Shown: positions 1,255 through 56,456 of the stretch, in pieces
How positions within the stretch are numbered: the stretch's first letter is position 1
Layout of the letters: every line of letters begins with the position of its first letter
NCBI GenBank assembly: GCA_030272155.1
Contig: CP126199.1
Span: 3,708,501 to 3,772,500, forward strand
Length of the DNA: 64,000 bases
Direction of reading: 5' to 3'
Origin: Tetradesmus obliquus
Taxonomy: Eukaryota > Chlorophyta > Chlorophyceae > Sphaeropleales > Scenedesmaceae
Program-made: the position numbers and the translations under genes
The notes under the pieces: generated by a model
Database searches by the model: none
Seen by the model: only the letters and a program-made list of their open reading frames with translations
Told to the model about the DNA's origin: nothing

Positions 1255-4200
1255 TCAGCCGCTTCTTTGCCGCGGTGCGCAGCGGATGATGTCATCCACG
1301 CGCAGGATCATTTCTGCTGCCTCTGTGGCGCTCAGCAGCACCTGCGGCACCAGCACAGCACCAGCAGCACAGTTGTGCGTGAGAACAAGCAGCACAGCAA
1401 CAAGGAACCCAACCCCTACTACACATGTGCTTTGTAAAAAGCAAGCCAGTGGCTCAACGCACCGCGCACATAGTACTACGGCAGGCTGTGGCCCGCGACT
1501 TGCATAGCACGCGAGCAGATGTGTACCCAATGGCATGTTGACATACAGAGACTGCAACCAGGTTTCAGGTGCACGTCAGCATTCTAGCAACAGCGTCTGC
1601 TGATCATGCGTTCAACTACAACAGTGACAAACACCGCATGTGGCCAACCGCCTGTATCATGTCACATGATGTTTGATGCATGTATCGTCAGCCGCCGCAC
1701 CTGCGGCTTGACCTTGAAGCTCTCATAGATGCCCAGCTTTTGATCCCCCAACCAGGCGTGTGTGCTCATGTGATGTGCCTATCAGTTGCACACCCCATGC
1801 CATTCATGATGCCGCACCTGCTGCTTGACCTTGAAGCTCTCGTAAATGCCCAGCTTTTTATGCCCCCAACCAAGTGTGTGTGCTCATGTGATGTGCCTAA
1901 CCCACGCACACCTCATGCCATGCATGATGGCGCACCTGCTGCTTGACCTTGAAACTCTCGTAGATGCCCAGCTTTTGCTGTCCCCAACCAAGAGTGTGTG
2001 CTCATGCATTATGCTTATAGCATGCACACCCCATGCCCAGCTTGTGAACGCCCCAGCTAAGTGTGTGTGCGCATTGTGCCTATAAACATCTGTACCCACG
2101 CCCTTTATCATGCCGCACCTGCTGCTTGACCTTGAAGCTCTCATAGATGCCCAGCTCCCGCATGTCCCCGGCAGCCCCAGCGATCACGTCCACGCCCATG
2201 CGGCTGGCGCCCGGGTCCGCGCCGTGTGCTGCGCGCAGCGTGGCCACAATGTCTGCGCTGTCCAGGCCTGCATTGTCGGCGATGGTGGTGGGCAGCTGCC
2301 GCAGCGCGCGCGCAAACGCCTCCATGGCCAGGCTCTTCTTGCCTGCAGGACAGCGTGGCAACATGACACAACGTGGTGTGGACAGAAGGCAGTGTGATGA
2401 GTGTGACCCTGGTGACGACTGTGCATCTACAACAGCCTCCACGGCCAGGCTCTGCTTGCCTGCAGTGGTTATGCATGGACTCTGAGCAGATATGGAACAA
2501 ATGCAATGAACCGCACGCTCCAGCAGAAGGAGATGCAGCAGCAGTGGTGGCGCACTTGCAGCGCGTGTGCAGATGCCCCCATAGCACAGCTCCCTCATCC
2601 CGCACCTGGCACCTTCCTGGCTGCCTCCTCGATCACACACTTCACCACACACTTCACCAAGGCACTTATGCACAGATACGCGACACACAAGCCCCAATAA
2701 AGCAGCAGCCGCATTCGCCCCGCACCTGGCGTCTTCCTGGCTGCCTCCTCAATCACACACTTCGCCAACGCACTGATAGACAGCACACACAGCCACACTC
2801 AAGCAGCAGCCGCATTCGCCCAGCACCTGGTGTCTTCTTGGCTGCCTCCTTGATCGCACCCTGCACCAGAGCACCAGAGCACAAATGCACAACAAAGCCA
2901 CAGTCAAACAGCAGCCGCAGCCCTCGCCGCACCTGGCGTCTTCTTGGCTGCCTCTCCAACCATTCCCTGCACCAAAGCACAAACGCACAATAAAGCCACG
3001 TTTAACCATCAGTCGCATCCCCCGCCGCACCTGGTGTCTTCTTGGCTGCCTCCTCGATCGCGCGCGCCATGCGCATCTCCGGCCAGCCGCCGCCGTACAG
3101 CACGCGCGGCTCCTTCACCGTCTCGCCCAGCACGCACAGCGCGTCGTGCAGGCTGCGGTCTGCCTCCTCCAGGATGTGGCTGCTGGCGCCACGCAGCACG
3201 ATGGTGCACGCCTCGCCCAGCGCCACGCCTGCACGCCACATAAGTTGAAACATTGCAGCAACGATTGGTTAGAAATGGATCCAATGCCCGCAGCACGGTG
3301 GTGCACGCCTCGCCCAGCGCAACGCCTGCACATGACAGCACATGTGTGGCGACAGAAGCATACTGTAAATGCAGCGTTGTGTGGCAGCAATGCACGCAGC
3401 AGCTGGCGGTGCAGCCGACGCAGCCCATACAGTGACGAACTTACATGAAAGAGAGCGATGAAGGTGCAACAGTGCCGCACCGGGCCTGAGCAGCATCACC
3501 ACCAACGCAGGCCCAAGCAAATCGAGATTACAAGTGTGACAAAATCGTGATAGCTTGGTGCATCGCCCACCAACCACGCACGCCCTCAGCACCCGGTACA
3601 GCTCACTCACCCGAGAAGTGGATGAGCTTATCCTCCCCGATCATGGTCTCCTCGATGAGCTTGCAGCTGCCCAGCTTCACCTCGCCCGGGTGCTCAAAGG
3701 TGGACGCGATCTCGCCGCCCAGCACCAGCGCCAGCCGCTCGATGCCGTCAAAGTCGGCGTGCTCGATAGACATCACGCCTGCAAAGAAGATTCAAATGCG
3801 CAGTGGGGTTGTTTATAACAAGTTCCTGCACGTACAACCAGCCAGCGCCAGCCGCTCGATGCCGTCAAAGTCGGCGTGCTCGATGGACATCACGCCTGCA
3901 AAGAAGATTCAAATGCGCAGTGGGGTCGTTTATAACAAATTCCTGCACGTACGACCAGCCAGCGCCAGCCGCTCGATGCGGTCAAAGTCAGCGTGCTCAA
4001 TGGACATCACGCCTGCAGGTGCAGAGGGCGCAGTTTGTTAACTCATTTTACAGGTGGCTGGGTTGCTGTGAACTGTCATGCACAGCTTGAACATGTTGTG
4101 CACAGCTGCGTCAGGTCAGCACCTGCCACCGCTGCGGCCGTTGTGTGGCGGCCGACAGGTACCTACCAGCCTGCCTGCACATCATCTGTGACACAAAACA

Positions 4201-7200
4201 GCCATGTGCTGGCAATCGGATATCTACCTGCGTCCGCGAAGATCTCCTACAAGTACCTACCAGCCTGCCTGGACATCATGTTGACATATAGTTTACATGT
4301 GTGAAACAAACAGCTGCGTGCTGGCAAGCTGATATTCACCTGCGTCTGCAAAGATCTCCTCGGGGAAGTTGTAGATGAGCTGCCTGTTGATGAAGCAGTT
4401 GATGCCGTGGTCAATGATCTTCTGGCACTTCTCGCGCATCTTGTTCTTCTCCGCAGCCTCAATCTCGCCAACCTGCGGCAGCAGCAGCAGCAGCACTGAG
4501 TGAATGGCCGCGCTTGGCTTTGGTGAGGCGTGTTGGCTTCTTGTGTGAAGCCTTGACAGCCTTGATGGCCTTGCAGCGCAGCAGCCATAAGGGTCTTCAA
4601 GACAGGTGCACCACATGTCTGGCTGCAAACACCCACTCCATCAGCATGCTGTCTAATCAACCCACGCCAGGTCATCCACTACGAGGCTTGCCACTTTTGC
4701 AAAACCAGTAACATAACTTCCAACAATTCTAACAAAAACCGCTGCAGCGTGCCGCACCTTGGCCATGCTGTCCACGCGCACGCGCGCGCCGTAGATCTTG
4801 ATCTTGTCCGTGTCCATGGGCGTGTTGGCGATGAGCACCTTGGCGTCTGTGATGCGCTTGGGCTGGCCCACGCCGATCTTCTTGTCCAGGATGAAGCCCT
4901 CGTCAAGGAACGAGTCCTGCAAGTACAGCGCAGCACAAAACGTTGCGTTTACTGCGTACAAACTTGTCCTGTCACATGACAGCGGTAAAACACAACAGAC
5001 CTTAAGAAAAGACAAAGAAGAGATGAAGAGCTGTTGTCCGGATGAAGCGCTCGTCCAGGTAGGAGTCCTGCAGGGTGCAGCCACAGCACAACGGCACAAA
5101 CCTTTGAACCTGCAGGGTGAATTCACAGTACAACGGCACAAACCTTTGAACATTTTGCACATACCATTCTGACAACAAGCACTTGTGTCCAGAAAGGACT
5201 CCTGCAAGGAACCACAGCAACCACAGCATAACAGCAAAAGCATACCCGCTAGTTCTTACGAACAGGCCCTCACTCCAAGTAGTTAGTTGAGACCCCCATA
5301 GCAACAGCAACAGTGAAAAGGGCAGCAGCAGCAGCAGCAGCGGCGGCAGCAGCAGCGCCGCGCACCTTGAGTGCGCCTCCCGCCTTCTTGATGATGTGGA
5401 TGGCCTCCAGGTTGCCGCTGCCCTTCAGGCGCGTGATGGCGTCCACCGCCAGCTCAGCAAAGTGGTCCTGCAAAGCATGCAGCAGAACAAAACAGATTCA
5501 CAAACTTTCAGCAACTTGTCGACTGTCAGGTCAGGAGAGTGGTCCTGCAATCAGGGCAGTGTGCAACAACGCAGCAGAACAAACAGAGCAGGCAGAGCTG
5601 TCAGCAACTTGTCCCCCGGCAGCTCAGCAAAATTGGTTCAGCATCCACAAGCACAAATGCCTCGGACACGACTCACAGCACTGCCCGGCTGTGCTGTGTG
5701 CAAAACATTCCTTGCACGCACCCCCAGCAAGCAGCCTGCCACCGCATGTTTCCACCAGCTGCCCCCTCCCTGCCGCCAAAGCCCCTGCCTACTCCCCATA
5801 ACACCACCCACCTTGTCTGCTGTCAGGATCTTGCTGCTGAGCGTGGTGCGCGCGATGTTGAGCAGGTCGTTCCTGAAGGCCTCCGGGTGCTCTGCGTTGC
5901 TGAAGGCAGCAGCCGTCAGCTCGGCCTTGGCCACCGCCTCAGCCTCGCGGAAGCCTGCAGGCATGGTGACAAAGTTTCAAAAGGACAGGCATGGCATGCG
6001 TATGTCACCTGCAGGTCTCAGAGGCAGTTCAGCCTTGGCCACCGCCTCAGCCTTGCAGAAGCTTGCAGGCATCGTGGGGCTGTAAAAAAAGGCAGGCAGG
6101 GCATCGCTATAGTGCTGGTATCACTGCCAGCTCGGCCTTGGCCACCGCCTCAGCCTCGCGGAAACCTGCAGGCATTGTCATAGTGCAGTGTTGCAGTGTG
6201 AATGGCTATTGACATGTTGTCAACAGGTCAGGCTGGGCATGAGCGTGTGAATTGCGGGTTTGCAGGGGAGTTGAGCATTGGCCACCGCCTCAGCCTCGCG
6301 GAAGCCTGCAGGCATAGATTGACAACAGGACGGGCAATGCATGTGTGCCGCTTGCAGGTTGCATGAACGGCGCCGTCTGCCACGGTAGTTGCATCTGCTG
6401 GCCTGCCTGCACAGCTGCTGCACACGTAGTGCCTCTGACAGCAGTTGACGGGCACACATGCACCCAGCCGTACAATTCATGCCTCCCCTCCCCACCTGCT
6501 GCACACGCAGTGCCGCAAAAAGCAGTTCAAGCGCACACATGTTGCCCACCTGCAATGTTGGTCATGGGGTGCACCTCCTGCCCCACCGGCTGCTGCACCC
6601 GCCGTGCCTCCAACAGCAGCACATGCGCACACACGCACCCATCCACTACCCTCCCCCAGCCCCACCCTACCCATTCACCTCCCTCACCTGCGATGATGGT
6701 CATGGGGTGCACCTTCTGCCCCACCAGCTGCTCAGCCTCGCGCAGCAGCTCCCCAGCCAGCACCACCACGCTGGTGGTGCCGTCGCCCACCTCGTCATCC
6801 TGCACCTTGCTGATGTCTGCGGCAGCAGCAGCAGCAGCAGCAGCGGCAGCGGCGGCAGCCGTGTCAGTTGCAAGTTTACCATGAGGCACTGCGGTTGCTC
6901 GCTGTGCTGCCGCGCTGTCAACAGTGGTCGTGTTCCATTCAGTCGATGCAAAGAGCAGTGGCGATGCTGTTGGTGCTGTCACCTGCCGCAGCTGCCTTTC
7001 TGTTACTGGTACACATGCGTTACACAATTATCATTGTCTTTGCATGATGCCACAAGGTTCTTGACACTCTGGTTGGCAAACGTCATCGCACACAACGCAG
7101 CAACAGCAACAGCAGCAGCAGCAGCAGTGGCGGCCGCGGCCAAGCGCACACCCACCTTGGAGCACTTTGGCTGCGGGGTTGTCCACGTACACAGACTTCA

Positions 7201-8265
7201 GAATGGTGGCGCCATCGTTGGTGACAGTCACCTCGTGCCCGCGGCCCATGCTCTGCAGGATTTTGTCCTGCAAGCAGCAGAAAACATACAGATATAACTT
7301 ATGTGCCTTTGTCGTGCTACCCGCAGAGCATGCTTGTGGAACAGTGCAGAGCTGTGATGTGATCGTGCTTGACATTGCGGCTGTTCTACAGGTGCAAAGC
7401 AGTGCTGTTCGCTGGTGAACAAGCTGCAGCATGTTCATGGCGCTGATGGTTGCCTGCACAACACACACTAAGAGTGTACATAGTGCAGGCACTGGCATAC
7501 ATTACACAAAAGCCGTACAATTGCCGCTTGCTGCTGCTGCTGCCAGTCTGGACTGCTACCACGACTGTGCCTGCAGCAGCACTCCTTGCTGTCTGCTGTA
7601 GACGCTGTTGCAGAGCAGCTGTTGCTGCGCAGCAGCATGCAGTGATGCGCCTGCCAGCACTAGCAGCAAGGATACCACGAACGGCAGACACCTGGCTATC
7701 CTGCTGCACAAAAGCATAAAGGAGGGAAGCAGGGACCATCTTCAGGGCTGCATCAGCAGCAGCGAGTATGCACTGCTGCTGCAGCTGCTGCTGCTAGTGC
7801 AGCCTCAGCGGCAGCGGGGCTTGCCACTCACCATTCCCTTGGGCCCCAGTGTCGACTTCACTAGGTCTGCCATAGCCACTGCGCCCACAAACGACGCCTG
7901 CAGGTACACAGGCAGCAGCAGAGCCGCCGTGTTCGCAGCAAACAGGGCAGTACAAGTTAAGGTATAGTGTATGCTCCTCCTGCTGTTGTTTGTTTGCTGC
8001 TTGGGTACTAGTGCGGCATGCAAGTCCTGCAGAGCAGCACAGCACGCAGTGCTGCGGCTGATGTGCTGCAGGGCGCAAGCTGCCAGCATGATGAGCTGCT
8101 GCTGATGCAAGCGCTGTAGTCATCGGCGTATGGTACATCAGTTACTTGTGTAAACATGTGTCAGGCTGTTGTGTCACTGCACACTGCTTCGTGCCGCACC
8201 ATCCGCGCGTTTTCTCCCTTCTCTTCCCGGGCTCCCTCCTGCAGCATCCCTTGATTGGGGGCCAT
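1255..8265 (-). CDS. CCT2: T-complex protein 1 subunit beta (cytosolic chaperonin CCT)
   Basis: Beta subunit of the TRiC/CCT ring, which folds actin, tubulin and other cytosolic proteins using ATP. Twelve exons: 8200-8265, 7832-7897, 7156-7267, 6688-6816, 5812-5954, 5366-5467, 4758-4916, 4340-4472, 3611-3778, 3031-3228, 2119-2342, 1255-1341. They join in frame to 528 aa, the usual length for plant CCT2. Seen in order: NDGATILK (about 61-68), the nucleotide-binding [18 protein letters not shown] (from about 92), [28 protein letters not shown], a [11 protein letters not shown] helix, [12 protein letters not shown], and the C-terminal [13 protein letters not shown]. The ATG follows a perfect acceptor (TTTGCAG), so an upstream 5' UTR exon is possible. 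Stop is TGA. Five of 11 donors start GTGCG. Nearly every intron carries extra copies of an exon edge (listed separately). Identity is certain; exon ends rest on phase and consensus. Confidence 0.97.
1690..2163 (-). repeat. four tandem copies of the CCT2 exon 11 donor edge
   Basis: The last ~45 bp of exon 11 plus its GTGCGGC-type donor (true copy about 2111-2160) recur at about 1931-1980, 1811-1862 and 1690-1742, all inside the last intron. Flanking intron sequence is repeated too, giving a unit near 120 bp (the last spacing is longer). All copies keep a GT donor in the same orientation. Confidence 0.9.
2310..2472 (-). repeat. copy of the CCT2 exon 11 acceptor edge
   Basis: The exon 11 start with its TGCAG acceptor (about 2315-2350) is repeated at about 2432-2470 with a few substitutions. 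The copy also keeps CTGCAG in front of a GCAAG exon start. Confidence 0.75.
2594..3066 (-). repeat. five tandem copies of the CCT2 exon 10 donor edge
   Basis: The last ~35 bp of exon 10 with its donor (true copy about 3023-3065) recur near 2927, 2819, 2719 and 2594, about 100-125 bp apart, inside the exon 10/11 intron. Each copy has the GAAG-rich exon end followed by GTGC or a close variant. Confidence 0.9.
3203..3335 (-). repeat. copy of the CCT2 exon 10 acceptor edge
   Basis: The acceptor edge of exon 10 (about 3203-3233) is repeated at 3295-3333 with two or three changes. Both copies have TGCAG before the exon-derived bases. Confidence 0.8.
3727..4022 (-). repeat. three tandem copies of the CCT2 exon 9 acceptor edge
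   Basis: About 55 bp of exon 9 with its TGCAG acceptor and about 60 bp of intron form a ~118-bp unit present three times (about 3727-3844, 3845-3962, then a shorter copy to 4022). The copies are nearly identical, so the array is young or kept uniform. Each acceptor is intact. Confidence 0.92.
4225..4373 (-). repeat. copy of the CCT2 exon 8 donor edge
   Basis: The exon 8 end and donor (about 4334-4372) are partly repeated at 4225-4256, including the GCGTC(T/C)GC(A/G)AAGATCTCC block and a CAG/GTA-type donor. Confidence 0.7.
4885..5210 (-). repeat. copies of the CCT2 exon 7 acceptor edge
   Basis: The exon 7 acceptor edge (about 4885-4925) recurs at 5037-5074, and weakly at about 5181-5207, each with a GACTC-type exon start behind TGCAG. 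Exon 6 has a weaker copy of its own acceptor edge at about 5520-5545. Confidence 0.7.
5929..6318 (-). repeat. four copies of the CCT2 exon 5 acceptor edge
   Basis: The 5' edge of exon 5 (about 5929-5963) is followed upstream in the intron by copies at 6026-6073, 6132-6178 and 6278-6316. All carry the Ala/Glu-rich start and an intact (C/T)TGCAG acceptor. Spacing is about 100-145 bp. Confidence 0.9.
6545..6735 (-). repeat. copy of the CCT2 exon 4 donor edge
   Basis: The end of exon 4 and its donor (about 6680-6735) recur at 6545-6605, with the CCCATGAC block and a CAG/GTGGG donor. Confidence 0.75.
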
Positions 8266-11200
8266 CTGCAAAGCAGAAGCAACCAAAAGCAGCATTAAAG
8301 CGTAAGTACTTTGTTGGGCTGCCAAAACACAGCATGCACAGGCATTTGCCACTGCATGCAGGTTGCGTTGCTGCGGCTGCGCTGTGCTGCTGTGGCTGCA
8401 TTGCATTCTTCGGCCTGCGTCAGCAGATCGTGACCCCTGCGTTACTATGGTTTCTGAACATATAGATCAGCGATTTAAAGGGTGTTCAGGCTGCAGGTGG
8501 AGATCCTTGCTCAAGGTCAGGCGGGTTTGCAGCAGCACAGGTCCTGCCACGGCTGCTGTACATGCAGCTGCAGGCACCACCTACGCCGTCCACTATATTT
8601 ACGCACAAGCGTCGCCATGATGATATAGAGCTCTTGCCGCTTGCTTGCTGTGGCCTTAAGCTGCTTTTAAATGCGTCTGGCGCGTAGCAAATGATGAGCA
8701 GCGGCGACTATCGCAGCATACAAACAAGTACGTCTCGGTCAACAGGTGCGATCTGACTGAGCAAGCTGCTAGGTGACAGGATCATTTGGCGCCAAGAGCA
8801 TGCGAACAATGACACACTTCCAGACGCTTTCATGTAGTCGCTTGCAAGGTTTTTTGAAACCACACCTTAGTTAGTAGTGCATTCTTTGATGCTATGATAT
8901 TGGTCGAGACCTACACATGCCTAAGCGACCCGAGTCCCTGGCAGTGTGTGAAGCAGGGGGCAGAGTCAGGCAGTAGCCAAGCCCATGATTACAAAGTACT
9001 ATCTGCACATTGCCCATCATATAGAGTGACATGCAGTGGATTCACAAAGCAAACTGGGACAATCAATGGTGTCTGCTGCGCCACATGCGTGTGCAAGTCG
9101 TCATCATGACTGATCAGTGGCACCTGCAGCTGCTAGGTGCCACCTGTCAGTGACGGGCATTGAGATTTGAATGAGATGCTCTGCACCCGCTGCAGAACAG
9201 CACACTCGAAGGCAGCCATAGACAGCTTGGTAAAACCTGGTGACAAAACAATCGGCACACCAAGTGAAAGTCGTAACATGACCCAGGCACTGCTCAGCAC
9301 ATCTGCCTCAGCAGCAGATACGATCAGGCTTGCAGCCTGCACCCACAGCCACAGCATAATCACCCCGCTTCTGTGTCTGCAACGATTATGCCCGCATCCC
9401 AAGACTCAGAGCCTACAGAGAATCAACCAGGAGCACAGTGGCAGAAGGCGCCCACTGAAGCGTGAGCCATGAGATATATAGAGCATAACACATATTGGCA
9501 CCTGATTGACACAGCCCAACTGCGCCTCTCAACCTGCTGCAGGCACACACGCTCTGCTGGACAAGACACTGCCAAAGTGCTGCTCTTCATAATCGATCAC
9601 GGATGCATGGAAGGCTCATGGCATGAGTGCCTAGTATACACTGTGACTTGGTCACGAGGTGCAGGGATGTGTAGGGACTGCCCTGCGGCATGTTGATACT
9701 GTATGACTTTGGCGCCTGATGCAGTGGCTGCTGCCACATCACACAACACCACATCAGTACATATCCACGCGAGCCGCCACAGGTCATGTACGCAGGCTCA
9801 GCCGTCATGACACAGCCGTTTGCTGCTTGCAGCGCATCTGTCGCCATGCGGTATCCCCGACTTTGACAGCAGCCACATACGCCTGACTTTGAATCGCTTG
9901 GTATGCGCAACCAAAAGAGCCACAGAAATGCACGCATGCTACATAAAGGCGTGACCAACCATACCGCCTTACATATGCAAGAAACAGTTGAGAAATTCAC
10001 GACGCAATTATTGGCTTCAAGAGGCACACCACGTGTAGTGATCTGCTGTGAGATATTCCTTCTAGATCCACACCAGGCCTGCAAGACATAGCCCGTGTGT
10101 GACGTGACACCTCCTGTCCCAGGCAGCCGCTAATGCCGCATGAAAGTGCTGGTTGATTAAACCTGGTCGCGTTGCAGCACGGCACCTTGCAAGATCCTCG
10201 TGTAGCACACAGCCTATAAACACAAGCACGGCAATGTCATTCCACATCTTACGGATTATTGCGGCCGCAGTCAAGAAAGCCAAGAACTACTCATGTAACA
10301 ACACCTGAAGCAGCTGCTGCAACACAGCTAGCCCCTATGACCTCTCAGTTTGTCGCACACAGTGCAACACAGCGGCAACCACGCACGGATCTGGTGCATG
10401 TGCCCTTGCAGTGCGGTCAGCACACCAGCAGGACACGCACACCCAGCCCACATGCAGAGCATAGGGCATGCAGCCCACTTGCAATGCGCCAAGCTGGAGC
10501 AGGAGCACACATACACAAACCAACGATCTGCGACGGCAGCGCCAAACTGCAGCTGCTGCAGTGGCTAGCCTCCCAGCTCTGCGTGCTCAGGCGTCACATA
10601 ACACACCTGCCGGCACCTAAACCAGGCAACACATGCCGCAGGACAATACAAAGATACTAGCGTCAGCCCTATGTACGAGCGCCGCGACACGCAAACCACA
10701 CCAAAACACCACCACAACACAAGGGTGAGTAGACGACGTTGCACCCTTCATGCTTTTTACCACCAAGACACTGTTATTCAGCAAAGCATGTCGCCATGTC
10801 AACTTTTTTCACACAGAGCAACCTTGCGCGCGACAGCAGGCCCCTGCTGCCCAGGCAGCAAATTCTACCACACAGCACACTCTCAAGAGTGTGCCCACAC
10901 ACGTATGGGCACGCAAACCTCAACGCAGCAAGTGACTACAATGCCACCGCTGTACACTGTTGCAGCAGCAGCAGCAGCTGTAGCCTGAGCCAGATGGAGT
11001 ACCGCATACAGACTGCTGTCATGCGCCCTTCGCAAGCAAGCAGCGCCCCTGCTGGGGACCCAAGCCGGCACAAACACCAGGCGCAGCAGCACGCAAACTG
11101 CCACACACATACTATGCCACACGCAAACTGCCACCAGCTCTCAAGAGCAGCGTAATGATAGCGGCAGCCGAGTGCCGTCGGGTACTGTGCGGACAGGTGC

Positions 11201-28213: not shown

Positions 28214-28423
28214 TGGCAGCAGGTGGTCAGTTGGGCAACCAAACGGGATGTCACACAGCACAGACTCCCTTCATGGCTGCATGCTGCGAGCCATCTGCAT
28301 ATGTCTTGGTGACAGCATGCTACTGCCTGCTACTGCTGCTGCTGCTGCTGCACCTACCCACGTGCATCTTGCGCATGGACCCAGCCACCCCGCTGCCCTC
28401 CAGCACCAGTCTGCCAAATGCAC

Positions 28424-28462
<39 letters not shown>

Positions 28463-28567
28463 GTACCACCCACCCGCCCACCCACCTGCATCTTCTTCAC
28501 AAAGCCTGCCACCCCGCTGCCCTCCAGCACCAAGCTGCCAAAGGCAAGGAAGGCTGCAACATGCACA

Positions 28568-28611
<44 letters not shown>

Positions 28612-30860
28612 GCTGCCGACCCACCTGCATCTTCTTCACAAAGCCTGCCACCCCGCTGCCCTCCAGCACCAGGCTGCCGAAGGCAAAGAAGGCTGCCACG
28701 TACACGCTGCCCATCACGGCAGAGTCCAGCACCACCTTAGTGGCAAGGAAGCGCCCGCCGCCGCCAGGCACCAGCCACCGGCACACCTTTTCCAGCCCTG
28801 CAGGTCATAACATGTGTAGGGATGTGCGCAACCGTATAAAGCGTAAAATTATACTGCGTAGAAAGCGTATTATATGCCGTAGGGGGCCTTATATGCCTGG
28901 CGTAGGCGTACATAAAACTTGATGTTGGCCTTCCTGGGTCCAGCTGTCAGGCTTTAGTGGTCTGACATGTTCAGTTGAATGTTATTGTTAATTTGATGTG
29001 TTACAGCCACGGGGCCGCCTGCTGTCAAGGCGTTTACACGCTAATATACGTAAGCAGGTTTGTTAGCTCGCATGCAGTGGCACCTGCTGACCACTGTAAA
29101 CAGCCAGTGTGCGCCCCACACCTGCCTACAGCTGTTAACAAGGGCAGAACCACCTTTCCACTGCATATTGCTGGAACCTGCTGGTTGAATTGGGACATTT
29201 TGCCACTCCACAAGCACCCATACTGCTGTTGTGGTCAACGCTGCTGCTGTAAGGCGGCAGGTGTAACAACCAGATCAACACAAGCATGCACGGCAGCTGC
29301 CCCTGCACATGCACACACCATCTGCACTCCACACACAGCCGAACTGCCGCTGTGGCCAACGCTGCTGCTGTGAGGCAGCAGGTTTACTCAACCAGATCAA
29401 CACAAGCCGACAGCACGGCCTGAACAGCGTGAGGTCTATGTGATCAATCAAATAATTGTCTGCAAACAACAAGGTTTTAGGTTTTACGTTTTAGGTTTTA
29501 CTTGACGTGCAGAAACTGGTAGCTCTTCGTCTCTGACAGCTCAAGAACGTCACCACAGGGTTCCTGTACACCCCTAGTACTGCCTGTGGTTCTGAGCTGC
29601 CAGATGCTCCCCCTCACTCGAGACACTTGTCTTGACACACTGCCAGGCATAATGTAAAATAACAAATTATATAGAAAGTCAGGATGCCGAAGTACGCTGG
29701 TCATAATGTCTGGGCACATAGCACCGCGCAAGCTGGCTGTAACTGGCGTGCTGGCGTGGCATTCAGGTTCGCTTGATTACTGTGTATGGCCAGCCAGTAT
29801 AATTTCGCTACCCCTGGTAACAGAAAACAACTGGCGTGCTGTTCCCTGGCAGTGATGACGTCCTGCCGCTGCCGTACAAAGATGATGAGTGGTCGACCTG
29901 CAGTATGTGTTTGGCAGTGCTGACCTGCCTGCAGAGCCTGTGCCGCTGGGTGCACTGGCTGCCTATGTTGCAGCAGCTTCTGTGCCAGTGCAACTGTTTG
30001 ATGTGGATGTTGCGCAGCTGAGTAGCCGCACGCTAGCAGCGCTGCGACTGGCAGTAGGTTGTCAACCCATATGGGTGTCTGTGTGTGCAGCTGTTGCTTA
30101 TCAATCTTTTTATGCTGCATGTGCATTGACAATGCGATTGCGTTGTGGCATAATAGCAGCAGCAGCCAGCTGCGGTGGGGCAACAGCAGCAGCAGCAGCA
30201 GCAGCAGAGGGTTGGCAGTCCTGGTAGCCTCCCAGACGGGCAGAAATGGCTTCATATGGTCCCTAATATGTTTGTGAACTCATCTGGGACGATACCGGGG
30301 CCATACCGCCCTGTTTTGGGCTGTAACAAGCTGACATACGTGTTGATGTACGGCCTGGTCCCGGCTGTACGCCGTATAATACGTCGAATAGACGCCTACG
30401 TTCTAAGGTATACATACGGTTGTCATTATACCTGTTATATATGCCTTTTTTGGCCATATCGTGAAAATACGCGTATAAACGTATGTTATAAAAAAACGAC
30501 GTATAATTCTACGTGTACGCTTGTGCACATCCCTAAACATGTGTCAGTGTTTGTTTTACAGTTAGTAACGCAAGGCTTGGTTGTGAAGAAGAGTGTTGGT
30601 GGCGCGCGATCAAGACTTGTGACACAGCTGGTTTGCTGACAGTTGCTTGAAGGATGTGCTGCGGCTGCATCCGCTGCAAGCATGCCGTTAAATTGCTGCG
30701 CTGCTCTCAATGGTTACACGCTCCTGACTGCCTCACCTGAGTACCAGAACTCCCCAACAGGCCCCACAAATGCAGCGCCAAAGCCTACTCCAGTGAGCAG
30801 TGTGCGCCGCTGGTCTACGGTGAAGCCTTTGCTGCTGGAGTGCTGCAACATCTCAGGAGA

Positions 30861-31502: not shown

Positions 31503-34500
31503 ATGGCGCTTAGGAGTGCTAGCACCCAGCTGCTGGGCCGTGCTGGCCTGCTGCCAGCAGCAGTATGCAACGCATTTCACCGCTGCATGTCAACGTCTGA
31601 CAAGTTCAGCGTTGAGGTGTGCTATTTGCCCGAAACATGATGCTTCCTCGTGCCCTGGGCAATGACAGACTGGTCCTCAAACATCACGTTTTCTGCGCAG
31701 GTGCTGCCGTTCAAGGCTCACAGGATCGAGCCACCCAACAACGTTGTGGAAACTAGCATCGATGAGCTGGTTGGGATGTATGAGCTGATGTACAAGATGA
31801 GGCGCATGGAGATAGCAGCAGACATGATGTACAAGGCCAAGCTCATTCGTGGCTTCTGCCACTTGTAAGTAGCTCAGCAGGCTGAGATCGCAGTATTGTC
31901 AAGAAGATGCTATGGGAGTACATTTTGCAGTGGCAAGGACAGCGGCAGGCAAACGCAGCAGCAGACAGGCTGGCCATCTGCCAGTACCAGCACAGCGCAA
32001 CTGCAGCACTGTGCATCACCACGAGCACAATGGCAAAGCTCGAGCAAAAAATTGCTGTTACGTAGTGGAGCCAAGCAGGGCAAGTGCGGATCATGCTGCC
32101 GGGCATGGCAGCAGCACCAGCAAAACAGTCCACGCGGCTTTGACGGCTTGCAGCAAGTGCAGTCTGCCCTGCAACGTCATTGCTGCTGTGCCAAATCAAA
32201 TTGCGGGCTGTCATTGCAGCGTACCTGTCACCAGCAGCAGTTGACTCTCACTGCTGCCAGTATGACTGCCAGGAGGCAGTCGTGACAGGCATGTCTCACC
32301 TAATCTGCAATGAACCCTGCGTGCTGCTGCCCCTCTGCTTTTCTATCACACTTCAAACACGCCACTGACTCTCACTGCCGCAGGTACGACGGCCAGGAAG
32401 CTGTCATGACAGGCATTGAGGCAGCGCTCACGAAAGAGGACGCGGTCATCACCAGCTACCGCGACCACTGCCAGCACCTCAGCAGGGGCGGCACCGTGAA
32501 GGAGGTCATGGCGGAGCTCATGGGCAAGCGGGATGGAGCCAGCAAGGGCCTGGGCGGCAGCATGCACATGTGAGGCGGGCGTGTTTTGTGTGGTTGCATG
32601 CTGTAGTTAGGCGTGGTCCTCAGCACAGCAACGAGGTAGGGGATGGGGCAAGCGCAACGGAGCCAGCAAGGGCCTGGGCGGCAGCATGCACATGTGAGCA
32701 CAGCGTGGGTGTTTTGTCACTGCGTTCTGTTTCATGTCGTGGGCTGCAGCACAGCAGCTTTTGGAGGAAGGGGTGGCGCCAGCAAGGGCCTGGGCGGCAG
32801 CATGCACATGTGAGCACGGCAACCGGGATGTGCTGTTTGCTTGTGGTGTGTCGCAATGGGCTGCAGCACAGCAATATGGTTTAGTAGGGGCGGTTGATGG
32901 ACGTACGGTTGCTGAGGACGAGCAGCTTGTGTATGCTGCAGCAGCCGGTGAGGTGCAGATGTGCCTTGGACAATCAATGGGAGGAGTGGGTCATGGCTGA
33001 GCTTATGGGCAAGCGCGATGGAGCCAGCAAGGGCCTAGGCGGCAGCATGCACATGTGAGAGTGGCGGCAGGGATGCGGTTGCGTGCTGTAGTTGGGTGTG
33101 GGCCTCAGCACAGCAGCTTTTGGGGGAAGGGGCACCGCCAGCAAGGGCCTGGGCGGCAGCATGCACATGTGAGCACGGCGGCAGGGGTGTGGTTTGCAGT
33201 GTGCCGGCGCTGCTGGTGGGCTGCAGTGGGATGCAGCACAGCAGAAGGGGTATGTGCTGCGCATGTGGCTCACTGGTGGTTGAGCACGCCCTACATGCTG
33301 CACCAGCTGTATGCTAGCTAGCTTTGCAGTGTAGCCAGCTTGCTCAGCAAGCCAGTGGCAGGGGTATTGCTGTGTATGGGTGGTTTGCATGTATGGGTGG
33401 TTTGCATGATTGGCTCAGGTACTCAGCATACTCACTGGTCACAAGCACAGGGCTGGGTGCAAGATGGTCACGGGAGTAGCAACTACGAACCCTGCAACAT
33501 GAGCATGTCACCGACTTGCAGCAACAACAAGCACATCCCTCGCAGGTTGTCACACTGCAGCAGCAGCAACTGCTGCATGAATGCTAGTACTTGCTTGCGT
33601 CTACGCCACAGTTGCCGCTGCTGCATTATAACAACCAGCGAGGGATGCTGCTTGTTGGTGAGCCAACCAGGAACAGCAATACGATTGCAGAGCTGCTGTC
33701 TGAACAGTTCTGCAGTGCAAATTGCGCACAGCGGTCGACTTTCCAGCGTCTTACAAACACACACCATGCTTACATGTGTGCAGGTACAACCGCCAGGCTA
33801 ACTTCTATGGTGGCAACGGCATCGTGGGTGCGCAGATCCCCCTGGGGGCAGGCCTGGCCTTTGCCCTCAAGTACCAGAAGAAGCCAAATGTGGCAATAGC
33901 CATGTACGGTGCGTTGCGCTTGCGCTGGTGCTGCAGCTGCTGCTTCAGCATGCGATGTTGTTGTGTAGGTGGGGTAGCGCACTATTTGTGAGGTTGCAGG
34001 CCGGCGGCACAGGGGTATGGCAAAGGCAGGGCACTGGCAGCAGCAGCAACAGGACCAAATGCAGCCCTGTCGGGGCTACTATCACCGCGTCAACCGCTCT
34101 ATGCTTCTGTTTTGTTTGCAAACTTTGAGCTGCTGCACGTCCATGCAGGCGATGGTGCTGCCAACCAGGGCCAGAAGTACGAGGCGCTCAACATGGCGGG
34201 CCTGTGGAACCTGCCTGTCATCTTCGTGTGCGAGAACAACCACTACGGCATGGGCACGGCCGAGTGGCGCGCAGCCAAGAGCAGCACCTTCTACACGCGT
34301 GGCGACTACATCCCGGGGCTCAAGGTGGACGGCATGGACGTGCTGGCGGTGAAGAAAGTGAGTGACGCGCAGGGACATGGTTTTGCTCAAATCCGTCTGC
34401 AGCGGACTACAAGTAGGACACCAGTCTTGGCAGTGGCAGCAACAGCAAGTGTTCTTGCCTTGCTTGCTAAAGTGTATTTATGTGTTGTGGTTGCGGCGCA

Positions 34501-36009
34501 TCGCTTCGGTGCAGCTGCTGCTTGTCTGCTGGCATCCTCTCTTCCTGCGTGGTCATTACCTTGTCGCCGTATTGTGCATCAGACATATGACTATCACTGT
34601 GCAGATTTGGTGTTTCGAATAGGCTGAGTCAGCTGGTCCAGCACAACGTGGCTGACTCTGTGCTCACATCATGCTTACTGTGCTGCTGCTGTGCCTTCCC
34701 CCGCAGTCCATGGAGTTTGCCAAGGCGTATGCGCTGGAGCACGGGCCCATCATCATGGAAATGGACACATACAGGTGGGCTGATGCTACTGCTGGCACAG
34801 GATGATGAAACAGGATCATGAACAGGTGGATTTGCACAGCACACTGCTGCAGCTGGGGTGCCTGTAGTGGGGCGCGGGCTCATCATCATGGAAATGGACA
34901 TATACAGGCGGGCTGCATGCACTGAATAGCACTCACATGCGCACGTGCAGCCAGGATACAGCCATGTTCCGCTGGATAAGGCATGCGCAGCAGCTGCCAC
35001 GTGCGCACAACTGTGATGTGGCAACATTCAGTGTGCTATTGTGACGGCTTTGAGTCCCATCCTCATCTTGCTGCCTGCTGCTGGGCTGCGTGGCGCTGTG
35101 CTGCAGGTACCACGGCCACTCCATGTCCGATCCAGGCAGCACGTACCGCACGCGCGACGAGATCAGCACCATGCGCCAGGTGCGGCAGCAGCAACGGGCA
35201 CAGCAGTGCAGACTTGCTGCTCAATTGTGCATGTGTTGAGAGCATGTGTGCGCTCTTATTCGTGATGCTGCATCACTGCTCAGGTGGTGATGGTTATCCT
35301 AAAGCCTCAAGCATGTTGTCAGCGCCACACTGCATCTGCAGACCGCACTGCTGCTGCTGCTGCTGCTGTATCGCTGCAGGAGCGTGACCCCGTGGAGTGT
35401 GTGCGGGTATGCGCTGCTGCTGCTGACTCGACCTGCTTCTGCTGCTGCTGCTGCTCCTGCCTCTGCCTGTCATCACCACTGCAGGAGCGCGACCCCGTGG
35501 AGCGTGTGCGCAAGCTGCTGCTGGCCAAGGGCTACGACGCAGCCGCCATCAAGGCCATGGAGAAGAGCGTGAAGAAGGAGGTGGACACGGCAGTGGAGGA
35601 GAGCAAGGTGCGTGCTGCGATCATGCGGCGTGCTGCTGCGACCATGCGCTGTTGTGACTCCACATACTGTCCTGCTGTGTTGGGCGGCTGTTATGCACAT
35701 GGTGTGGCTGCCTCTATTGGAATCCCAGCTGCTTTCATGCAAGCAGTCACGCATCGAGGCCTCGTGACACTGGTGCTACCCACATGCGCACAAAGGGATG
35801 TGCAGGCGTGTCTGCATGCAATGCTCTGCGCCACCCTACACCTTGTTCCTCATTCTGACCATGCTGCGCTTGCGTGTGTGCAGGCTGCCGCCATCCCTCC
35901 CAACGAGTGGCTGTGGAGGAACGTGTATGTGGCTCCAGCAAACATGGACATGCGCACCGTGGAGGGCACCTACGTGCAGCCGACATACGACCCAACCTAC
36001 TCCAGCTGA
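31503..36009 (+). CDS. PDHA1: pyruvate dehydrogenase E1 component subunit alpha, mitochondrial
   Basis: Catalyses thiamine-diphosphate-dependent decarboxylation of pyruvate with E1-beta. Nine exons: 31503-31616, 31701-31864, 32384-32569, 33784-33908, 34149-34357, 34707-34774, 35107-35179, 35485-35607, 35884-36009, giving 395 aa (TGA stop). The first ~30 residues ([20 protein letters not shown]...) are a mitochondrial presequence. Then come [57 protein letters not shown] with GGSMHMYN, the diphosphate-binding GDGAANQGQ (about 197-205), ENNHYGMGT, and [19 protein letters not shown], which carries the regulatory serines known in this family. Length matches mitochondrial rather than plastid E1-alpha. 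Five edge copies of exon 3 (including the true one) crowd the next intron. Confidence 0.97.
32240..32432 (+). repeat. copy of the PDHA1 exon 3 acceptor edge
   Basis: The start of exon 3 and its upstream intron (about 32365-32417) are repeated at 32240-32295. The copy has TGCCAG before a TATGACTGCCAGGAG exon-like start, so it could act as a weak acceptor. Confidence 0.82.
32515..33182 (+). repeat. five copies of the PDHA1 exon 3 donor edge
   Basis: The exon 3 end (GGCAGCATGCACAT) with GTGAG donor occurs at 32569 (true) and again ending near 32694, 32810, 33055 and 33169. Copies carry 30-60 bp of exon, and that near 33055 reaches back to GAGCTTATGGGCAAGCG. All keep GTGAG. Exon-derived bases differ by only a few changes. 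Confidence 0.95.
34735..34915 (+). repeat. copy of the PDHA1 exon 6 donor edge
   Basis: The end of exon 6 (about 34739-34785) is repeated at 34870-34917. The copy's donor reads GCGGGC instead of GTGGGC, so it is weakened to a GC-type site. Confidence 0.8.
35370..35515 (+). repeat. copy of the PDHA1 exon 8 acceptor edge
   Basis: GCAG followed by the first 24 bp of exon 8 appears at about 35376-35404, ~104 bp before the true edge at 35485. The copy is followed by GTATGC, so it could even form a 27-bp micro-exon that keeps frame. Confidence 0.8.
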
Positions 36010-38691: not shown

Positions 38692-41600
38692 TCAACTGGT
38701 GTTCAGTGCCGCTGCAGATCGTGGCGCCTGCTGCAGGTGACTCTCCACAACACCTGGCAGTGCTGCCAGCATGCGGCCATCTACTGCTGGTGATGCTGGA
38801 CCCCCAGCATAGCTCGCCACCCCACCTGGCGGCAGTGTTATTTCAGCAACACAGTCCCCGTGCTGCCCATCACCACTGACAGCAGCACCACCGCTGCTGC
38901 TGAACATGCCCAACGGGCTCGGCTTGTTTGAAGCTGACTGTGCGTGCAGCTGCGCATGTACTTTCTGCTGCCGCCTGCCGTTGAGCGATAGCATCTGCAG
39001 AGGCAGCTCTGCAACTGACGCGCCCCCTGGTGGACTGTCAGGGCTGCAGATCGGTTGGCCTGGGGAGTCTGAAGCAGCCTCCTTGTGCTGCTGCTTTGTA
39101 GCGCGGCGAGCTCTTGCTGCCTTCAACCAGAAATGATACTGAATGCGCTTCACTGCCGTCAGCAGCAGGGCAATGCCGAGGGCAATGCCCTGGATGTACC
39201 ACAGCCCAGCCACCTGCAGGCAAGAAAGAATCAGCAATGCTAACGATTCCTGCTCAATGCAATGATTAAGCACATGCTACAGGCTGATGTGGATGCTGAT
39301 GAACTGCAAGCTGCTGCAGTGGCCACATCACGCCACACTCAAACTGCTACCTACAAGCTGGACACTGTTGAATGTATTTTAACATCCTGGACTGCATGAT
39401 GCCACAGCAGGTCACTTGCAGGAGGTGCAGCAGCCACGGCACTGGTGGGAATGGCCAGCAACAGTTCACTTTCGGTGAGGCCATCCAGCCGCAATTCTCG
39501 TCACATCTCCATATCCATCCGTTTGTAGGTATGATCGTTCCTCAGCAAAGGTGCCATGTAGCCCATGCAGTCGCCAATTGCTGCTGCACAGCCAGCTCAC
39601 CTGATTAAAATGTATCACAGTGTCAGCCATGCGTCCTCCACCAACATCATTTTCAAGCGCATCTGCGCATGTGTGCCCATTTGCTCGATCATCATTGTGC
39701 GAATCAAGCCACAGCTCACCTGTTTGAAGTATATCACAGTGTCAACGCGTTGCCCCCCAGCGGCATCATCTGATAGCGCGTCTGCGCATGTGTGTGCATT
39801 GTCCAGCCCCTTGCCGTAAATGTCTGCCATTTTGCCCACTGTTTCGCCATGCATGAAGACCCTCTCCAGCTCATCCAAGACTGCACCTGCTGTCTGCAAT
39901 CACACATAACAAGCATTGGGGTGCTAGGCAAAATGCCAGGTTGCAGCCAGTGGAAACCACACACAGGTAGCTTGTGCTGTAGCGTGGCGCATAACGGTGG
40001 CTGGCCACTATGGTGCAGCTGCAGACCAAGGGATTTCACCCATCACCCTTCAACAGCGCTGTACAAGGCGCATCCAGTACCGTCACACATGCATTTCACG
40101 AGCTTTCAACAATCACTCCCTTTCCTGGGCATCAGTGTCAAGTGAGCAATGGCAAAGCAGACTAGACACTGCCTGCAACACCACTTGGCTGTCGTGACCT
40201 ACCTGCAGCCGCACCATGGAGGTTGACACGTTGCTGATGAGGCCATCTGGCGCGTCCGGAGGAAACGCAATTGACAAGTCAAACGTTTGAAATGCGCCGC
40301 CGACTGGGAAGAGATCGCAGTGCTCTGCATGTGACGCCATGTCCATTATTGTTGCAGTGTCAAGCACCAGGGCCTGGTAGCGGTGCGAGCGGAGGTTGTC
40401 GACAAAAGCTGCCGTGTCTGCATTGGTGTCCCTGTGGTTCCGTGCAAGATAACAGCACGCGACATCTCAGGCGCTTCAGCACAGCACGCCAATGGTAAGC
40501 GCCCCGCATGTGCAATGCAGCGTGACGCAATTTGTACGGAGTATACACAGCAACCCCAAAACTTTACACTGTGCATCGTACAGGAGACAGCCGCTGCAGC
40601 AAGACAGGACAGGCGTCACTGTTGCTGCTTCCATAACGTGCACCATTGCAATCCAGCTGAGGGTAGGAGGCAGAAGCATACCAAGAGCAGTGACGCCCCT
40701 AAACCATGCAGCATGGCTCTATGCTTGAGCAGTTGCAGTTTGGAGGCTCACCATGGCAGCCCAACAGCATCATACGAGGTGTCCCTGCAGAAGCAGGCAG
40801 GCATTGGCGCATGATGAGAGGTGATTCTCCGCATCTCTTGCAACCAGCCACAAGCCTGTCCCAAGTGTGCCTATCTGCATGTAATCTCGACACATACTGT
40901 CTGCAAAATTCGAGTCCAGCACTAGTTGGCTTGGCACAGGGAGGAAAAGCAGGGCAGCAGCACAGATCCAGATGTGTGTCATGCGCCGTACCTGAGGCTC
41001 GTCATGTAGCCTTCCCAGGTCTGCACTGTCTTGCCCGCCAGGTCATCCACTCCTTTGATGTCATTTGCCAGGTTCTTTGCTGTCATGATGCCGGCAGTGG
41101 ATGCTGCAGTTGCAAAGCGGTGCAACGGCATGCGGTGACTATTGATGATGCCGTCAAAACCCTGCAGCAGGCTGCACCAAAACCTTCGAGCCAACACGCC
41201 AAGCTGACAGTCTTGCACATGCCCTGCCCGCACACAGGAAATGTGCTGCATCACCAAGCTGTCAAGGCCAATTCAGAGGCACGTTCCGTGCGCAACTCAT
41301 GCACTGCACGCATGCATGCAATGTGAGGTTCAGCACTGCCATGCACAGGCTTTCAGTCCAGCACTTGCCTCCAGTCCTGCAAGCGAACCCACCAGTAAAC
41401 AGATGAACCATGACGACAGTAAGGGCCGCATAGCCCAGCACCAGAACTTTGCTTGCCCAGGTGTGGGGGTCGCCCACTTGCACGGTGTTCTGCACCAACT
41501 TGGCAGTTGTGTACCAGCTCCAGCCCCTCAGTCCCCTCTTGTTGACTTTGTTGCCATGCGTCATGCACTCGACGGCGGTTATCAGCAGCGACACACCAAT

Positions 41601-53572: not shown

Positions 53573-56456
<2,884 letters not shown>

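Follow-up and report, generated by a model that had tools for sequence, protein, structure and literature searches.

The window analysed here is a 64,000-nucleotide stretch of the genome of the green alga Tetradesmus obliquus (contig C9, 3,708,501-3,772,500; assembly of 104.7 Mb in 17 contigs). It contains CCT2 (CCT-beta), a gene whose introns hold partial copies of the edges of their adjacent exons. A hand-built model places CCT2 on the minus strand at 1255..8265, with 12 coding exons separated by GT-AG introns. Its spliced translation of 528 aa is 100% identical to T. obliquus protein P0001, and its best matches among solved structures are T-complex protein 1 subunit beta chains. The annotated P0001 is longer by four N-terminal residues, MATL, and a 5′ exon that fits them adds one intron of 341 nt (8266-8606). 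The assembly has a single CCT2 locus, as an earlier note on this DNA had said; the remaining matches have 34-57% identity, and no relative of the CCT2 protein turned up in a scan of viral contigs. The gene reads as follows.

8607-8618, minus strand: extra 5′ exon of 12 nt, reads MATL and then GT, fits the annotated protein
8200-8265, 7832-7897, 7156-7267, 6688-6816, minus strand: exons 1-4, from the spliced translation
5812-5954, 5366-5467, 4758-4916, 4340-4472, minus strand: exons 5-8, from the spliced translation
3611-3778, 3031-3228, 2119-2342, 1255-1341, minus strand: exons 9-12, from the spliced translation

The 11 introns have 22 edges; comparison of each edge with its own intron, against a bar set by the best of 200 dinucleotide shuffles, revealed 18 intronic copies at ten of them. 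These are exactly the edges named in the earlier note: the donors of exons 4, 8, 10 and 11, and the acceptors of exons 5, 6, 7, 9, 10 and 11. The copies occupy seven introns (4, 5, 6, 8, 9, 10 and 11). As introns 1, 2, 3 and 7 contain no edge copy above the bar, the description of the pattern as affecting nearly every intron was too strong. The exon 1 acceptor edge likewise has no copy in the 341-nt intron that follows the MATL exon (score 14, shuffle maximum 24). A different scoring with 100 shuffles returned the identical ten edges, with exon 6 marginal (17.5 vs. 16.5).

All 18 copies, which hold 21-54 nt of exon at 88-100% identity, reach to within 12 nt of the junction. The claim that each keeps its splice dinucleotide stands for 16 of them, the exceptions being one exon 5 copy (AA) and the exon 6 copy (GA). 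Two copies, those of exon 6 and exon 8, are weak: each spans 21 nt at 90% identity and scores 32, the shuffle maxima being 24 and 27. At all ten edges the own intron outscored every other CCT2 intron, most narrowly at the exon 8 donor (17 vs. 15). The largest number of extra copies at one edge is four, at the exon 10 donor. At exon 9 the copies form a head-to-tail unit with a period of 117 that includes intron sequence, and this intron part is itself repeated at 96-97% identity. The copies are listed below, from the shuffle test unless marked otherwise.

6550..6594, minus strand: exon 4 donor-edge copy, 45 nt, 91%, GT kept
6275..6305, minus strand: exon 5 acceptor-edge copy, 31 nt, 97%, AG kept
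6128..6163, minus strand: exon 5 acceptor-edge copy, 36 nt, 100%, AG kept
6025..6062, minus strand: exon 5 acceptor-edge copy, 38 nt, 89%, AG changed to AA
5611..5631, minus strand: exon 6 acceptor-edge copy, weak, 21 nt, 90%, AG lost (GA); a further match at 5518-5550
~5183-5205, minus strand: shorter exon 7 acceptor-edge copy, by eye only
5034..5067, minus strand: exon 7 acceptor-edge copy, 34 nt, 88%, AG kept
4228..4248, minus strand: exon 8 donor-edge copy, weak, 21 nt, 90%, GT kept; by eye, the intron part is repeated too
3959..4012, minus strand: second exon 9 acceptor-edge copy, 54 nt, 93%, AG kept
3842..3895, minus strand: exon 9 acceptor-edge copy, 54 nt, 98%, AG kept; together with the intron part it has a period of 117
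3289..3325, minus strand: exon 10 acceptor-edge copy, 37 nt, 95%, AG kept
2613..2954, minus strand: four exon 10 donor-edge copies (2933-2954, 2827-2857, 2726-2754, 2613-2634), 22-31 nt, 90-97%, all with GT
2435..2459, minus strand: exon 11 acceptor-edge copy, 25 nt, 92%, AG kept
1701..1985, minus strand: three exon 11 donor-edge copies (1936-1985, 1818-1855, 1701-1738), 38-50 nt, 90-97%, all with GT

Intron 6 also contains a 42-bp unit that occurs twice at 5067-5151, adjoining the exon 7 edge copy.

Edge copies beyond CCT2

Two further samples were compared with the window: an unselected sample of 10-kb stretches at fixed positions on contigs C1-C5 (19 used of 20; one reads N), and a chaperonin set of loci around Cpn60/TCP-1 matches, chosen by PF00118 and not by repeats, which takes in organellar-type chaperonins as well as CCT genes. 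CAG/CTG microsatellites are abundant in the window and the sampled loci and were masked ahead of the repeat scans. Outside CCT2, exons were predicted with a gene finder that was self-trained and length-aware and that called 45 genes with 419 introns; it missed at least one gene, near 283-656 of locus L014. Of the 22 CCT2 splice junctions it recovered all but the exon 4 donor (21), while misplacing the start and calling false exons inside copies; CCT2 was analysed with the hand-built model.

Edge copies were sought for exons of at least 100 nt, allowing any exon segment and up to 500 nt of flanking intron, with the reversed intron as control. A copy was present at 21 of 330 edges in the unselected stretches and at 39 of 102 in the chaperonin pieces; the window, counted with CCT2, had copies at 13 of 63, and the reversed introns gave none in any set. 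Hand-picked true chaperonin exons gave 55 of 126 edges at a slightly lower threshold. The pattern is thus not special to CCT2, the gene in which the earlier note described it. A banded self-comparison (offsets 30-400, threshold 32, stronger mask) recovered 226 local pairs in 313,848 bp, where offsets shifted by 1.5-3.5 kb predict 0-3.8. Pairs at offsets up to 450 fall into 120 arrays: 50 in the unselected loci, 51 in the chaperonin pieces and 19 in the window.

The copied segments hug the junction. They lie within 5 nt of it in 24/32 cases in the unselected stretches, 18/22 in the window (CCT2 included) and 43/63 in the chaperonin pieces, against 1.7, 1.1 and 4.4 expected for uniform placement in the exon; only 4/32, 0/22 and 5/63 lie more than 25 nt away. 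Exon interiors are seldom copied, as tandem duplication with purifying selection must yield, unlike random patching with pieces of exon.

Junctions also show a modest excess over uniform placement of the same pairs in genes. The junction share, J/(J+I), was 22/37 in the unselected loci (0.43 for uniform placement), 33/44 in the chaperonin pieces (0.50) and 6/9 in the window without CCT2 (0.27), an excess that could arise if similarity decays more slowly in the exon part. A lenient-scoring scan of the unselected loci, superseded by the stricter one, leaned in this direction too, with 26 J and 9 I, J being not above the rotation mean of 23.2. The earlier note had named copies that are no commoner at junctions than elsewhere as a refutation of its claim; the counts did not refute it.

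Among 93 nearest copies (those with a spacer below 30 nt left out), the distance from live to copied junction is never below 80 nt, once 80-90 nt, and 100-150 nt in 60. By array class, spacings below 80 nt occur in 1/48 junction arrays, 0/26 exon-to-intron and other mixed arrays and 1/5 exon arrays, and in 7/17 intron-interior and 8/24 intergenic arrays, some of the latter lying in missed genes. Spacings of 100-150 nt characterize 34/48 junction arrays vs. 4/17 intron-interior arrays. The lower limit suggests filtering by splicing, in which duplicated sites would do harm if they lay too close to the live one.

The copies do not appear to be built as mini-exons. An opposite splice site at the inner end (position weight matrix score above 2) was found in 21% of 73 acceptor-type copies vs. 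22% nearby, and in 40% of 78 donor-type copies vs. 37% nearby. GT or AG is lost in 29/151 copies, 15 of the 29 being donor copies in unselected loci. With no excess of a second splice site, neither the mini-exon reading nor the poison exons proposed in the earlier note are supported.

Differences between exons and their copies

Differences between 60 exon and nearest-copy pairs fall 47/36/160 on codon positions 1/2/3, with one stop codon and with indels in 7/60. The counts are broken down below; the all-copies sets include false exons and overlapping pairs, and pairs within one array are not independent.

Exon vs. nearest copy: chaperonin 16/13/100, unselected 18/13/35, window 13/10/25
Nearest copy, synonymous:non-synonymous codons: chaperonin 89:24, unselected 30:26, window 16:25
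All copies, exon vs. copy: chaperonin 96/108/515, unselected 74/93/145, window 36/26/68
Copy vs. copy: chaperonin 69/67/302, unselected 67/61/99, window 15/13/39
Changes unique to one copy: chaperonin 26/31/104, unselected 25/27/41, window 9/7/23
Changes unique to the exon: chaperonin 4/6/63, unselected 5/6/10, window 0/0/4
4-fold sites differing: chaperonin 192/836, unselected 81/540, window 35/206
Third positions other than 4-fold, synonymous vs. non-synonymous: chaperonin 84 vs. 12, unselected 30 vs. 10, window 19 vs. 5

CCT2 itself (9/8/19) fits a neutral copy next to a conserved exon, and the unselected loci are also near 1:1:2. A strong third-position bias is confined here to five chaperonin pieces with hand-picked exons, two of CCT1 (6/8/59 and 11/9/51) and three others (13/18/47, 13/9/54 and 17/14/77), which we take to be CCT4, CCT8 and CCT5, respectively. 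In the presumed CCT5, one donor edge and its nearest copy differ at five sites, which are all third positions; four of these differences are synonymous. Six further chaperonin pieces show weak bias or few differences (4/4/5, 1/1/6, 2/4/10, 4/2/6, 6/8/11 and 2/2/9).

Mutation bias was rejected as the source of the third-position excess in the chaperonin pieces, class-changing differences being commoner per site at A/T third sites (87/259) than at G/C ones (126/1334). Gene conversion between copy and exon, or copies that preserve the exon's own past, would by argument each give about 1:1:2 at most.

Origin of the copies

The copies are probably, though far from certainly, remnants of recurrent short tandem duplications across exon-intron junctions, tolerated because splicing removes them. 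A duplication unit, mostly of 90-150 bp, would cross the junction; the exon body would stay joined to one edge copy, whose junction is still spliced, and the second edge copy would end wholly inside the intron. Since that second copy is spliced out, the protein would be unchanged and the event would survive. Duplications within exons, or of whole exons, would alter the protein and be lost, and duplications within introns would survive while being harder to notice, so that the location at junctions would be largely survivorship. Splicing would filter out copies nearer than ~90 nt. By analogy with known duplications, the tandem mechanism may act via break repair.

The intron side of the copies speaks partly for this account. 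It is homologous in 42/93 nearest copies, and more often so where the exon part differs little: 5/7 below 3% difference, 10/19 at 3-6%, 13/31 at 6-10%, 10/24 at 10-15% and 4/12 above. The youngest copies look most like plain tandem duplications. A separate spacer test found homology in 32/60 junction pairs, which had to overlap the junction by 6 nt or more and in which the exon part mostly exceeds the intron part in length. Over the first five bases of the intron, copies have an identity of 0.70-0.91. Besides the exon 9 array, nearly whole units occur outside predicted genes at L010:4602-4836 (110/125 nt matched) and L012:9532-9705 (82/92).

Several observations weigh against tandem duplication as a full account. 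No intron-side homology is detectable in 51/93 nearest copies, including 11/26 with an exon difference below 6%, which is unexpected because a plain tandem duplication should carry the intron part along. Exon differences by codon position are alike in pairs with homologous (4.8/6.7/13.0%, 27 pairs) and non-homologous spacers (6.1/5.7/17.5%, 116 pairs), so age alone does not separate the two classes. Some copies are thus plain tandem duplications; elsewhere the spacer was either lost faster than the exon part or never present. In unselected loci GT is kept in only 12/27 donor-type copies, which may point to errors among the junctions or matches of that sample. Finally, the five biased chaperonin pieces are far too synonymous, since a neutral copy of an adjacent exon gives about 1:1:2 at most. 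The synonymous excess extends to changes unique to one copy in the chaperonin set, and the chaperonin copies retain high third-position G+C.

For the synonymous excess we weakly favour a template already diverged at synonymous sites, an exon allele supplied in several chaperonin genes through exchange between divergent haplotypes. Such a template would also leave the introns of the two haplotypes hard to align. According to PMC5552973, the assembly of strain DOE0152z measures 208 Mb and that of UTEX393 ~109 Mb, a difference that may reflect divergent haplotypes; these figures are not tied to the strain of the window.

Selection might instead keep the copies as coding-like sequence, in which case they would act as alternative, decoy or poison exon edges and their codons would matter. 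The concentration of synonymous differences in several chaperonin genes, seen even between two intronic copies, would be explained, as would the 84 synonymous vs. 12 non-synonymous changes outside 4-fold sites and a third-position G+C that barely falls. This is nevertheless unlikely, given that opposite splice sites stand at background level and splice dinucleotides are lost, that the copies are truncated exon pieces unable to replace the exon, that the annotated P0001 holds none of those in CCT2, and that CCT2 itself is near the neutral pattern. Repair or recombination directed to exon-intron junctions, for example through co-transcriptional structures, is unlikely too. A junction share above uniform in all three sets, together with a 100-150 nt spacing typical of junction arrays and not of intron-interior ones, argues for it; the excess is just 1.4-2.5 fold, exon-side similarity fades more slowly, splicing selection can sharpen the spacing by purging close copies, and the pairs are not independent. 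Most of the pattern does not call for the junction-favouring repair suggested in the earlier note.

An assembly artefact, in which divergent haplotypes are laid end to end at junctions where similarity stops, would account for differences that are synonymous only and for non-homologous spacers, and the assembly sizes in PMC5552973 could mean that divergent haplotypes exist. Up to four intronic copies per edge, the repeated intron part of the exon 9 array, the mainly 100-150 nt spacing and the lack of strong synonymous bias in CCT2 make it quite improbable. Templated insertions, by which broken introns are patched with short pieces of nearby exons, would fit the roughly half of cases without a recognisable spacer beside the exon part, but the rarity of exon-interior copies (0/18 in CCT2, with few in the other sets) makes them very improbable. 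Chance similarity or low-complexity sequence is negligible: the region is rich in CAG/CTG repeats and a first lenient scan gave many background matches, but stricter scoring leaves next to none at shifted offsets and none in reversed introns.

On a bolder proposal, which we regard as doubtful, exon edges, chiefly in several chaperonin genes, would be shadowed by partial copies that are, or recently were, constrained as coding sequence. The introns would hold these copies 100-150 nt from the live junction as a record or reserve of edge haplotypes, and the process that makes them would be linked both to junctions and to exchange between divergent haplotypes.

Introner elements are recurrent additions to introns in which one sequence is found at many sites. 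The T. obliquus copies resemble them as recurrent intron additions, and differ in that every exon has its own, local copied sequence; the exon 9 unit, the only one searched genome-wide, has a single match in the 104.7-Mb genome. The closest precedent is the potato RdRp gene, in which, according to PMC4974935, a tandem duplication across one intron-exon boundary created a new intron. There, too, the duplicated segment crosses one boundary and former exon sequence turns intronic, much as most T. obliquus segments reach to within 5 nt of the junction. As far as that source goes, the potato case concerns a new intron in one gene, whereas in T. obliquus existing introns appear lengthened in many genes, on both donor and acceptor sides and with up to four recurrences. 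In the Rogers/Hellsten model, as relayed in PMC4974935, introns are gained by duplication of an AGGT-bearing exon segment. The shared features are tandem duplication within a gene and an extra copy hidden by splicing; the T. obliquus unit, unlike the exon-only unit of the model as relayed, hugs the junction, often runs into intron sequence and implies no new intron position. PMC8355091 explains small tandem duplications in mouse and human cells by fill-in of breaks with overhangs, citing analyses of insertions that arose naturally in humans and plants. Those duplications are likewise short and head-to-tail, but as described there they are shorter than 100 bp and have no link to splice junctions.

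Among titles and abstract openings we found no report of exon-edge copies in introns of Tetradesmus or Scenedesmus, though subscription journals may differ, and no genome-wide account of such copies in any organism; the word 'intron' is absent from the main text of the genome papers PMC7590803 and PMC5552973. A single junction-crossing duplication is already in print. A genome with so many edge copies would offer a natural laboratory in which to study the lengthening of introns, the tolerance of splicing for duplicated sites and the distance at which a second site is still harmless. Should the synonymous-only divergence reflect haplotype exchange, lost exon alleles would have left datable records in these copies; should it reflect constraint, introns would hold coding-like sequence without a known role.

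Further copies and repeats

In the rest of the window, edge copies accompany five predicted exons.

28381..28685, minus strand: donor-edge copying at predicted exon 28625-28797; gene model predicted only
32242..33192, plus strand: copies around predicted exon 32384-32569, with an acceptor-edge copy at 32242-32292 and donor-edge copies downstream
34735..34924, plus strand: donor edge of predicted exon 34707-34774, copy 133 nt downstream; gene model predicted only
39593..39800, minus strand: donor edge of predicted exon 39720-39893, copy 119 nt away, exon part 75% identical
54889..55465, plus strand: copies around predicted exon 55120-55331, two acceptor-edge and one donor-edge

Near the end of contig C17 (~7800-8930 of G000, locus L047) lie direct repeats spaced by 169-180 bp or more, which appeared in the lenient scan only and are perhaps subtelomeric. 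At L012:7898-8397, a 114-bp tandem repeat lies wholly inside a predicted coding exon, perhaps of a repetitive protein. Two duplicated exon-like edges occur at L014:283-656, where the gene finder predicted no gene; the minus strand there reads like what we presume to be a mitochondrial carrier. In the C16 piece 4169827-4174794, the upstream copies of exon 4580-4750 end, by eye, at approximately the point inside the exon (ACCAG) from which the downstream copy starts. The C15 piece 2656956-2661947 holds five downstream copies of one donor edge at 2074-3138, which shrink with distance from the exon, from ~160 to 60 nt by eye.

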